DNA from: Gemmiger formicilis
GTDB lineage: Bacteria > Bacillota > Clostridia > Oscillospirales > Ruminococcaceae
Assembly: GCF_900167555.1 (NCBI RefSeq)
Contig: NZ_FUYF01000002.1
Span: 62,001-126,000 of the forward strand
Length of the DNA stretch: 64,000 bases
Direction: 5' to 3'
Notes under the pieces: generated by a model
What the model was told of the DNA's origin: nothing
Database searches by the model: none
The model's input: the letters and a program-made list of their open reading frames with translations, nothing else
Shown here: positions 5,141 through 17,953 of the stretch, one piece after another
Position numbering within the stretch: position 1 is the first letter of the stretch
How the letters are laid out: every line of letters starts with the position of its first letter
Program-made: the position numbers and the translations under genes

Positions 5141-5179
5141 TGCCGATATTGGCTTTCTTGCCAATGTCGGCATTTTTTT
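5141..5179 (+). terminator. Strong intrinsic terminator of the JAMM operon
   Basis: A 13-bp stem (5141-5153 with 5160-5172), a six-base loop and seven Ts. Confidence 0.9.
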
Positions 5180-5201: not shown

Positions 5202-5230
5202 TTGACTAATCCGTTCCCAGATGGTAAAGT
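5202..5230 (+). promoter_or_regulatory. mgtE promoter
   Basis: TTGACT (5202-5207), 17-bp spacer, TAAAGT (5225-5230). It begins a leader of about 235 nt before mgtE. Confidence 0.7.
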
Positions 5231-5292
5231 AACTATAGGTGCGAATAGCGCCGTGTAGTAAAAATTCAAACAAAGGTGAGGTGGTTGTCACA

Positions 5293-5394
5293 ATGGATAC
5301 CCCCAGTCCCAGTCCTGTGTACCGATGTATCTTGAATAACGGCAGCCACCACTTTTTTGTCAGGCAAACCAAAGCAAACTGTACGCGAAAATAA
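5293..5394 (+). CDS. 33-aa Pro-rich leader peptide upstream of mgtE
   Basis: ATG 5293 follows GAGGTGG at 5278-5284 with an 8-base gap; an in-frame GTG at 5281 is an alternative. The peptide begins MDTPSPSPVYR, with an acidic residue and alternating prolines at the extreme N-terminus. This resembles the enterobacterial leader peptide MgtL (MEPDPTPLP), where low Mg2+ destabilises ribosomes on acidic/proline codons and switches on a Mg2+ transporter. Codons 17-19 (GGC AGC CAC) overlap the antiterminator arm, and the following codons form the left arm of a large stem-loop. That it is translated and senses Mg2+ is inference. Confidence 0.6.
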   Translation: MDTPSPSPVYRCILNNGSHHFFVRQTKANCTRK

Positions 5395-5472
5395 GCGCAC
5401 GGTGTTGCTCTGCTTTGCATTGCCTAAAATTAAATGTGCCTGGCTGCCGCCTGAAAAGGAGGCAGCTTTTTT
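5341..5472 (+). promoter_or_regulatory. Transcription attenuator with antiterminator in the mgtE leader
   Basis: Terminator: 5443-5448/5461-5466 plus 5450-5452/5457-5459, GAAA loop, six Ts (5467-5472), ending directly at the mgtE ATG and holding its AGGAGG ribosome site. Antiterminator: GGCAGCCA (5341-5348) is perfectly complementary to TGGCTGCC (5441-5448) and would destroy the terminator. Between them, 5362-5367/5420-5425 and 5371-5376/5411-5416 form a stem-loop. A ribosome translating the leader ORF would cover 5341-5348 and favour termination; early drop-off would free it. I could not match an M-box consensus. Confidence 0.7.
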
Positions 5473-6837
5473 ATGTCTGATACCGCGATCCTGACCCTCC
5501 GCACGATGCTGGCCAACCTGGACGACGCCAAAAAGTACCAGAGCCTGCGCGATGTTATGTCCACCCTGCCCGCGCCCGACCTGGCCGCCGTGTTCGAGGA
5601 CCTCCCGCCCGAGAAGCTCCCCGTGCTGTTCCGCCTGTGTCCCAAGGACCTGGCGGCGGAGATTTTCGCCGAGCTTACCCCCGAGACCCAGCAGGACCTT
5701 ATCGACGGCCTGACCGATAAGGAGCTGAAGGCTGTTGTGGACGACCTGTTCGTCGATGATGCGACGGATCTGGTCGAGGAAATGCCCGCCAACGTCGTCA
5801 AGCGTATTCTGGCGCAGGCAGACCCCGCGACCCGCCGCATGATCAACGAACTGCTCAAATACCCCGAGGACTCCGCCGGCGGCGTGATGACCACCGAGCT
5901 GATGGAGCTGCGCCCCGACTGGACGGTGTCGCAGGCCATGGCGGCCATCCGCAAGAACGGCTTTGACAAGGAGACCATCAACAACTGCTACGTCACGGAC
6001 CGTGACCGCACCCTCATCGGCGTCGTCTCGCTGCGCGCGCTGGTCCTGTCCAAGGACCCCGACAACGAGCTGATCCGCGACATGATGGACGACAATGTCG
6101 TCAGCGTCAGCACGACCACCGACCAGGAGGACGTCTCCCAGATGTTCGAGAAGTACGGCTACCTGGCCATTCCCGTTGTGGACAACGAGAAGCGCCTGGT
6201 CGGTATCGTCACGATTGACGACGCTATCTCGATCATGCAGGACGAGGCCAGCGAAGATATTGCCAAGATGAACGCTATGGGCCCGTCGGACAAGCCTTAT
6301 TTTAAACAGTCTATGTGGGAACTGTACAAAAACCGCGCACCGTGGCTGCTGTTCCTGATGATTTCCTCCACCTTCTCCAGCATGGTCATCCGCGGGTATG
6401 AGGATGCCCTCGCCGCCGTGACCGTGCTGACCGCCTACATCCCAATGCTGACCGACGCGGGCGGCAACGCGGGCAGTCAGAGTACCTCCACCATCATCCG
6501 CGGCATGGCCGTCGGTGATATTGAGCCGCACGACCTGCCGAAGATTCTGTGGCGTGAATTCCGCATTGCCATCCTCTGCGGCGGCACGCTGGCGCTGTGC
6601 AACTTTGCCAAGCTGATCTTCCTGGACGGCATCGCGCCCCCTGTAGCGGCAGTCGTTTGCCTGACGCTGATCTGCACGGTCATCCTGTCCCAGCTCATCG
6701 GCGGCCTGCTGCCCGTCGTTGCGGAAAAACTCAACTTTGACCCCGCCGTCATGGCGTCGCCGCTTATCACGACCATTGTCGATACCACGACACTGCTCGT
6801 CTACTTCAACATCGCGCGGGTGTTGCTGAGAATTTAA
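5473..6837 (+). CDS. mgtE: MgtE magnesium transporter
   Basis: 454 residues. The order is an MgtE N-domain of acidic helical repeats (about 15-125), a tandem CBS pair (about 135-255, with VVSLRALVLSKD and VGIVTIDDAI), a plug helix, and five membrane segments (about 290-454) with the pore signature ADAGGNAGSQS-like TDAGGNAGSQSTSTIIRGMA. MgtE is a Mg2+ channel gated by intracellular Mg2+. The ATG directly follows the T-run of the leader terminator, and the ribosome site lies inside the terminator stem. Length is normal. Confidence 0.95.
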   Translation: MSDTAILTLRTMLANLDDAKKYQSLRDVMSTLPAPDLAAVFEDLPPEKLPVLFRLCPKDLAAEIFAELTPETQQDLIDGLTDKELKAVVDDLFVDDATDLVEEMPANVVKRILAQADPATRRMINELLKYPEDSAGGVMTTELMELRPDWTVSQAMAAIRKNGFDKETINNCYVTDRDRTLIGVVSLRALVLSKDPDNELIRDMMDDNVVSVSTTTDQEDVSQMFEKYGYLAIPVVDNEKRLVGIVTIDDAISIMQDEASEDIAKMNAMGPSDKPYFKQSMWELYKNRAPWLLFLMISSTFSSMVIRGYEDALAAVTVLTAYIPMLTDAGGNAGSQSTSTIIRGMAVGDIEPHDLPKILWREFRIAILCGGTLALCNFAKLIFLDGIAPPVAAVVCLTLICTVILSQLIGGLLPVVAEKLNFDPAVMASPLITTIVDTTTLLVYFNIARVLLRI

Positions 6838-17674: not shown

Positions 17675-17748
<74 letters not shown>

Positions 17749-17754
17749 TTATGT

Positions 17755-17832
17755 GGTGCCTATGGCGCAGTTGGTTAGCGCGCCAGATTGTGGCTCTGGA
17801 GGCCGAGAGTTCGAATCTCTCTAGGCACCCCA
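17755..17832 (+). tRNA. tRNA-His (anticodon GTG)
   Basis: Acceptor GTGCCTA/TAGGCAC with the diagnostic extra G-1 (17755) opposite C73, anticodon loop TTGTGGC, encoded CCA. Confidence 0.95.
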
Positions 17833-17837
17833 CCAAA

Positions 17838-17869
17838 GACCGTACAGGCGCGTTCCTGCACGGCCTTTT
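17838..17869 (+). terminator. Hairpin between tRNA-His and tRNA-Gln
   Basis: CCGTACAGG and CCTGCACGG pair with one mismatch, followed by CCTTTTCTTTT. It probably gives partial termination, because no well-spaced promoter precedes tRNA-Gln. Confidence 0.6.
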
Positions 17870-17878
17870 CTTTTATAA

Positions 17879-17953
17879 TGGGTCGTCGCCAAGTGGTAAG
17901 GCACGGGACTTTGACTCCCGCATTCGTGAGTTCGAACCTCGCCGACCCAACCA
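17879..17953 (+). tRNA. tRNA-Gln (anticodon TTG)
   Basis: Acceptor TGGGTCG/CGACCCA, anticodon stem CGGGA/TCCCG with loop CTTTGAC, T-arm GTTCGAA, encoded CCA. Confidence 0.95.

Follow-up and report, generated by a model that had tools for sequence, protein, structure and literature searches.

A candidate MgtL-like, ribosome-read leader switch before magnesium transporter genes of Gemmiger formicilis and other Clostridia

Is mgtE of Gemmiger formicilis switched by a riboswitch or by the ribosome that translates a short open reading frame ahead of it? The question is raised by the leader at positions 5202–5472 of the window, the whole 64,000-nucleotide stretch of G. formicilis DNA analyzed here. 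An earlier note on this DNA had likened the leader to that of the MgtL peptide; MgtL-type control has been described for enterobacteria. The gene that follows (5473–6837, on the forward strand like all leader features below) encodes a magnesium transporter of 454 amino acids that matched NCBIfam TIGR00400 with 441 bits (cut-off 232.75). The protein is 96% identical to the MgtE of locus L136, Gemmiger formicilis.

The promoter, the 33-codon ORF with its own ribosome binding site and the terminator described in the earlier note were all present. The sigma-70-type promoter (5202–5230) consists of TTGACT (5202–5207), a spacer of 17 nt and TAAAGT (5225–5230) with an extended −10 TG, giving 9/12 matches. 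By itself it is weak, with one seen against 0.7 expected in shuffles; the layout TTGAC...TGGTAnnnT is also visible by eye in other Gemmiger leaders. Just ahead of the promoter, the upstream gene has a strong intrinsic terminator of its own, at 5141–5179, with a 13-bp stem and T7. The upstream ORF (uORF; 5293–5394) encodes MDTPSPSPVYRCILNNGSHHFFVRQTKANCTRK, is led by the Shine-Dalgarno (SD) sequence GAGGTGG, runs from the ATG at 5293 to the TAA at 5392–5394 and is conserved in Gemmiger. Three of its codons fall under the codon bias described below, namely the AGT serine codons 5 (5305–5307) and 7 (5311–5313) and the CGA arginine codon 11 (5323–5325), which is the proposed slow-decoding site.

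The SD region of the uORF forms arm A (5280–5289, GGTGGTTGTC), which pairs over 10 bp with 5341–5350. This pairing overlaps arm B (5340–5350, uORF codons 16–20), the 5′ arm of the antiterminator. The antiterminator itself exists as the earlier note had claimed, with a length of 9 bp (5340–5348 with 5441–5449) in place of the 8 bp given there. Arm C (5441–5449) has a second partner in arm D, with which it forms an intrinsic terminator (5443–5472) made of the arms 5443–5452 and 5457–5466, a GAAA loop and a T6 run (5467–5472) that adjoins the mgtE ATG at 5473. The mgtE SD sequence AGGAGG (5457–5462) lies within arm D. Because the four arms are shared between the pairings, three mutually exclusive helices, A:B, B:C and C:D, are predicted. 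For A:B in the window leader (L001) the predicted energy was −19.0 kcal/mol, and 1/200 shuffles was equally good. Folding of this leader gave a z value of −3.0, equalled or bettered by 1/200 shuffles.

The earlier note had suggested a comparison of the leader with Rfam; neither the M-box (RF00380) nor any other family was found in it, and no M-box turned up elsewhere in the window. Four matches with E ≤ 10 were rejected as unrelated eukaryotic or viral families scoring far under the cut-off. With strict filters, RF00380 was found in 0/47 related genomes, and the Bacillus subtilis and Lactococcus lactis controls were positive. Among named mgtE loci, the M-box was present in none of the 7 uORF-bearing loci tested and was also absent from 31/33 loci without a uORF beginning M[DE]; some of these 31 carry the Lachnospiraceae-type uORF described below. 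It was detected before mgtE in two uORF-less loci labelled Oscillibacter (L161, L189). The M-box (ykoK) riboswitch, in these two loci, sits in the same place before mgtE as the uORF does elsewhere, and its purpose is presumably the same, but it is an RNA aptamer without a uORF.

Within Gemmiger the uORF was detected in 35/36 mgtE leaders, three of the 36 being named copies of already counted genomes, against 0.4 in shuffles. A sequence model of the Gemmiger uORF, trained on 25 rows that are part of the genomes searched, gave a single match in 33/35 genomes, each at mgtE; the two genomes that it missed were also without an mgtE match. Arms B and C were found in 25/26 distinct leaders, with median predicted energies of −17.5 (A:B), −18.3 (B:C) and −16.5 kcal/mol (C:D), and in 18 of these 25 the T-run adjoins mgtE. 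The pairing A:B was evaluated against shuffles in two windows. In the wide window it beat 95% of shuffles in only 1/25 leaders. In a narrow window, picked after the wide-window outcome was seen, it was among the best 5% of shuffles in 14/25 leaders, all within the 18 with the T-run, and no better than chance in 7/25, those without a T-run at mgtE. The spacing from CGA to arm B was 13–21 nt in 23 of the 24 CGA-bearing leaders and 27 nt in L021; L030 lacks CGA. The ORF start and the antiterminator complementarity, to whose conservation the earlier note had tied its reading, are conserved.

Several Gemmiger leaders depart from the layout of the window. L014, L016, L017, L018, L019, L021 and L024 form a second leader type with the same uORF and an mgtE without the T-run, and several of them carry a hairpin and then a T-rich stretch mid-leader. 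In L029, the one leader in which arms B and C were not found and which was excluded from the model alignments, the uORF start is kept, CGA is gone as well, and mgtE begins 55 nt on; this locus is a putative natural loss of the switch. The genome G018 has two mgtE genes, one (L004) with a Gemmiger-type leader and one (L046) with a MDAGGSGNIPGRSR leader.

Leaders of mgtE from other genera were collected regardless of uORF presence. Throughout, the starts of genes and uORFs were set by rule, and a uORF was counted if it was SD-led and either combined D or E at residue 2 with CGA or AGT, or carried both of these codons. L120 was dropped for lack of a usable match and L179 for too little upstream DNA. 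A uORF was detected in 163/212 mgtE leaders, against 6.5 in shuffles (Gemmiger 35/36, order-level 12/16, family-level 58/84, named 58/76). Some genomes were present twice; with duplicates removed, the count was 157/206 distinct leaders (shuffles 6.7), with no uORF detected in 49/206. We regard a translated uORF with a regulatory role as very probable.

In genera other than Gemmiger the peptide usually reads MDAGSSSGTxxGRS, and the Ruminococcus bromii uORF (L143) encodes MDADGNKGAVPGRSCNRM. The acidic residue 2 is part of the main detection rule; when residue 2 was left free, D or E stood there in 80/99 distinct non-Gemmiger uORFs having CGA and AGT. Among the remainder are records that carry the labels Lachnospiraceae, Butyrivibrio, Roseburia and [Clostridium] symbiosum; MKSALSGSDGSVPGRSCTAIK is an example of their peptides. 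Seven of the ten Lachnospiraceae-type leaders listed measure only 77–94 nt, and a few other entries look like chance. These minimal leaders (L157, L160, L164, L165, L174, L200 and L202) have the uORF core PGRS or PRS, and their uORF frame heads toward the mgtE start, which suggests translational rather than terminator control. Gemmiger peptides contain one acidic residue and 2–4 prolines, and those of other genera one acidic residue and a variable number of prolines. The prolines, which the earlier note had taken as a key feature, are not what is conserved across genera. Outside Gemmiger, where the typical peptide is MDAGSSG...GRS, the near-constant elements are the acidic residue, the CGA arginine and the AGT serine, and proline is not the common denominator of this predicted family.

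The structures that follow the uORF vary. Terminator-like hairpins occurred in 20/25 Gemmiger leaders (shuffles 5.3) and in only 32/100 other leaders (shuffles 8.6), which indicates that the output differs. In 69/100 non-Gemmiger leaders, pairing of the SD region with downstream sequence was among the best 5% of shuffles. By eye, the output structures comprise a terminator adjoining mgtE (the window type), a mid-leader terminator (the second Gemmiger type) and, in the short Lachnospiraceae leaders, pairing of the SD with the end of the uORF. One candidate sensor core with differing predicted outputs is present before mgtE in many Oscillospirales and in records labelled Lachnospiraceae. The exact MDAGSS-class pattern gave 0 matches in 391 class-level genomes, a result that says little because the pattern is too strict and few Oscillospirales are among those genomes.

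The early codons of the uORFs favored CGA and AGT. Among arginine codons at positions 2–15, CGA accounted for 24/30 in Gemmiger and 95/146 in the others, compared with 3/61 and 19/146 from codon 16 onward in the same uORFs and 2/543 and 37/1129 in mgtE itself. Among serine codons, the AGT share was 48/59 and 154/238 at positions 2–15, 2/26 and 7/135 from codon 16 onward, and 31/557 and 68/1228 in mgtE. For the comparison with mgtE codons, L152, L175, L183, L188 and L196 were removed by hand as probable false uORFs, and the second uORF candidate was taken for L190. Fisher values for the bias were between 1e-10 and 4e-33, with the kinship of the sequences ignored. AGC still made up 58/238 of the early serine codons in non-Gemmiger uORFs. 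The first CGA was located within codons 4–17 in 115/128 distinct uORFs. General drift toward AT-rich codons is an unlikely cause, since codons 16 and beyond of the same uORFs differ. Further A/T-ending codons (ATA, ACA, TTA, CAA) are also raised early in the uORF, so that rare or slow codons may be selected generally.

The tRNA complement bears on how these codons are read. Among the 55 tRNA genes of the G. formicilis genome, those for arginine have the anticodons ACG, CCG, CCT and TCT; TCG is absent, and CGA should therefore be decoded by I34:A3. The missing tRNA-Ser(GCU) is probably an assembly gap. A cluster of tRNA-Arg(TCT), tRNA-His and tRNA-Gln lies in the window at 17675–17953. A single tRNA-Arg(ICG) normally decodes CGC, CGT and CGA, all for the same amino acid, and AGT and AGC normally share one tRNA, with AGU wobble-read by G34. 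CGC and CGT together made up 0/30 (Gemmiger) and 10/146 (others) of the early arginine codons. Because CGA is preferred although CGC and CGT share its tRNA, decoding and not charging is indicated, and on these codon counts the sensed step looks like decoding more than amino-acid supply.

A model of the MDAGSS-class uORF matched 27/297 family genomes, 23 times at mgtE and 4 times before a P-type ATPase gene (mgtA), and all 4 mgtA matches were outside its training set. A 445-residue P-type ATPase fragment was best matched by magnesium-translocating ATPase families; its score is under the full-length cut-off because the sequence is a fragment. In the best 30 mgtA loci, an SD-led uORF with an acidic residue 2 was found in 26/30 under a loose rule (shuffles 1.4) and 23/30 under a strict rule (shuffles 0.4), and the CGA/AGT rule used for mgtE gave 24/30 (shuffles 0.9). 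Examples of the peptides are MDSDGSPRRQRAAY and MDTGSSGAGSIGRSG. The CGA/AGT bias of the mgtA uORFs is weak (CGA 12/45 Arg, AGT 13/41 Ser). Leaders of corA were used as a control, with 26 of 30 loci retained and partial matches omitted. They were at chance, with 0/26 under the strict rule (shuffles 0.1) and 1/26 under the loose rule (shuffles 0.8), and the idea of the uORF as a generic mark of Mg2+ genes was rejected on this result. Putative uORFs of this family sit before mgtA in Oscillospirales relatives, and since mgtA is the gene under MgtL control in enterobacteria, the MgtL likeness drawn in the earlier note gains by this. The mgtA leaders L293, L294, L295 and L299 contain an extra uORF (e.g. 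MEQGQCHSRNNMRWSQGRCGRARP) about 220–415 nt before mgtA; in L293, L295 and L299 it is upstream of the MDxGSS-type uORF, an arrangement resembling tandem attenuators.

We propose that the leader would act as a ribosome-read switch for the Mg2+ transporter, MgtL-like in logic, in which translation of the uORF would govern the mutually exclusive structures. At ample Mg2+, the ribosome would pass codon 11 (CGA) into arm B and mask it; C:D would then form, mgtE would be terminated and its SD hidden. At low Mg2+, the ribosome would slow, stall or drop off in the first 5–14 codons, with the wobble-read AGT and CGA codons behind the acidic N-terminus as the trouble site. With CGA occupying the A site, the ribosome's footprint would end about at the start of arm B, which begins 18 nt past CGA, just outside the expected front edge, and arm B would be left free. 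With initiating ribosomes occupying arm A, B:C would form, the terminator would fail and the mgtE SD would be exposed (ON). An untranslated uORF would allow A:B to close and C:D to form (OFF). This OFF prediction comes from helix A:B, a pairing that the switch model of the earlier note had omitted. Ribosome drop-off alone, the ON mechanism of that model, would be insufficient, since A:B could close without stalling or repeated initiation on the uORF SD. Mg2+, or a ribosome state set by Mg2+, is quite likely to be the signal, with low Mg2+ as ON, and we consider the explanation as a whole, in which Clostridia would respond to Mg2+ through MgtL-like translational attenuation, reasonably probable. 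Our assignment of decoding at CGA and AGT as the key sensed step is tentative.

Of the other explanations, the one that survives best is destabilisation of the classical MgtL type, in which the acidic and proline-bearing N-terminus alone would eject ribosomes at low Mg2+ and the codons would be incidental. The frequent acidic residue 2 in uORFs found without requiring it and the proline-rich Gemmiger peptides are in line with it, as are MEPGSTCSPEPDGRRR (L038), EPDPLPSPDPKK (L031) and MDSDGSPRRQR (L310), which are like MgtL (MEPDPTPLPRRR). However, many members have a single acidic residue and at most one early proline (e.g. MDAGSSSGTSVGRSRG), and a CGA/AGT bias restricted to codons 2–15 is not predicted. 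Such destabilisation may contribute, and as the full explanation it is unlikely. Nascent-chain arrest, in which the core (P/V)-(G/P)-R-S would touch the exit tunnel and cause a Mg2+-dependent stall, appears improbable. When non-Gemmiger uORFs were aligned on Arg, with CGA chosen as the anchor and CGA then AGT preferred, G was at −1 in 49/91 and S at +1 in 58/91, and S was at +1 in 10/10 Lachnospiraceae-type uORFs. The residues upstream of the Arg and the distances are highly variable, though, and arrest leaves the choice of CGA over CGC and AGT over AGC unexplained.

A so far unrecognised RNA aptamer that binds Mg2+ or another ligand directly, with the ORF incidental, would account for nucleotides that are better conserved than the peptide at CGA and AGT, and riboswitches commonly target mgtE. 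Against it, indels within the Gemmiger uORF alignment come in multiples of three, which keeps the frame, and third positions are free at Gly, Ala and Pro codons. In Gemmiger, CGA and AGT are mostly in frame 0 (31/2/4 and 64/5/3 over the three frames). With leaders <95 nt removed, the CGA and AGT stretches were paired no more than shuffles (16/84 versus 13.2 and 13/91 versus 12.1), and RNA pairing as the cause of the codon preference was rejected on this ground. Together with the lack of an Rfam match in the leader, these observations make an aptamer very improbable. Amino-acid attenuation, in which the uORF would sense how well the tRNAs of Pro, Arg or Ser are charged, shares its usual anatomy of a leader with terminator and antiterminator, and proline affects the Salmonella mgtCBR and mgtA leaders according to the available text of PMC3641672, but with mixed residues and no shared run of one amino acid, few early CGC/CGT codons for the same tRNA-Arg(ICG), and Mg2+ transporters in place of biosynthesis as targets, it is the least credible of all.

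The proposed ribosome-read switch can be compared with known systems. Like MgtL of enterobacterial mgtA, it would use a short SD-led uORF, acidic at residue 2, ahead of a Mg2+ transporter gene, and ribosome progress would pick between exclusive RNA structures, which are predicted here; mgtA is a target of both. E. coli mgtL has CGA at codon 10, although this is one sequence and may be chance. The ribosomal protein bL31 and EttA-like factors are reported to affect MgtL. The peptides here, MDAGSSG..GRS or MDTPSSPSPVYRC, are short and bear a resemblance only. The family differs from MgtL in occurring in Clostridia, in preceding mgtE besides mgtA and in its CGA/AGT codon constraint. The terminator of the window leader is intrinsic with the SD inside, whereas Rho-dependent termination is described for enterobacterial mgtA in the available parts of PMC11282234 and PMC11552253. 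In the tandem attenuators mgtM/mgtP of Salmonella mgtCBR, translation of leader ORFs likewise decides which stem-loop forms, according to PMC3641672, but their signals are ATP and proline and their sequences are unrelated. The mgtE motif SRC-65-1 is also a candidate regulator before mgtE; it is a riboswitch candidate that the accessible portion of PMC11109978 reports only from Thioalkalivibrio. In Mycobacterium tuberculosis, uORFs are likewise found in a Mg2+-related leader, and there an Mbox aptamer controls the uORF, according to the accessible part of PMC12810186, whereas no Mbox was found here. The earlier note had known of no MgtL-like peptide for clostridial mgtE, and literature searches, in which subscription journals and preprints were thinly covered, agreed in returning no MgtL-like uORF described for mgtE or for Clostridia.

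If the proposal is true, Mg2+ sensing by ribosomes would extend to a second large group of bacteria, where it would act on genes at which riboswitches had been anticipated. The family occurs in common gut Clostridia such as Gemmiger formicilis and Ruminococcus bromii. The contrast between codons for the same residue and, normally, the same tRNA would cleanly separate decoding from the peptide as what Mg2+ alters. It is possible, though rather doubtful, that Mg2+-sensing leader peptides defined by codons and not by residues are widespread in Clostridia, where they would have several outputs, serve two unrelated transporters and replace the M-box. The sensed step in that codon-defined reading, which we hold with equal reserve, would be the decoding of CGA by I34 and AGU by G34 just past the acidic N-terminus. 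The occurrence of related peptides with the same unusual codons before two unrelated transporters suggests a widespread ribosomal report of low Mg2+.
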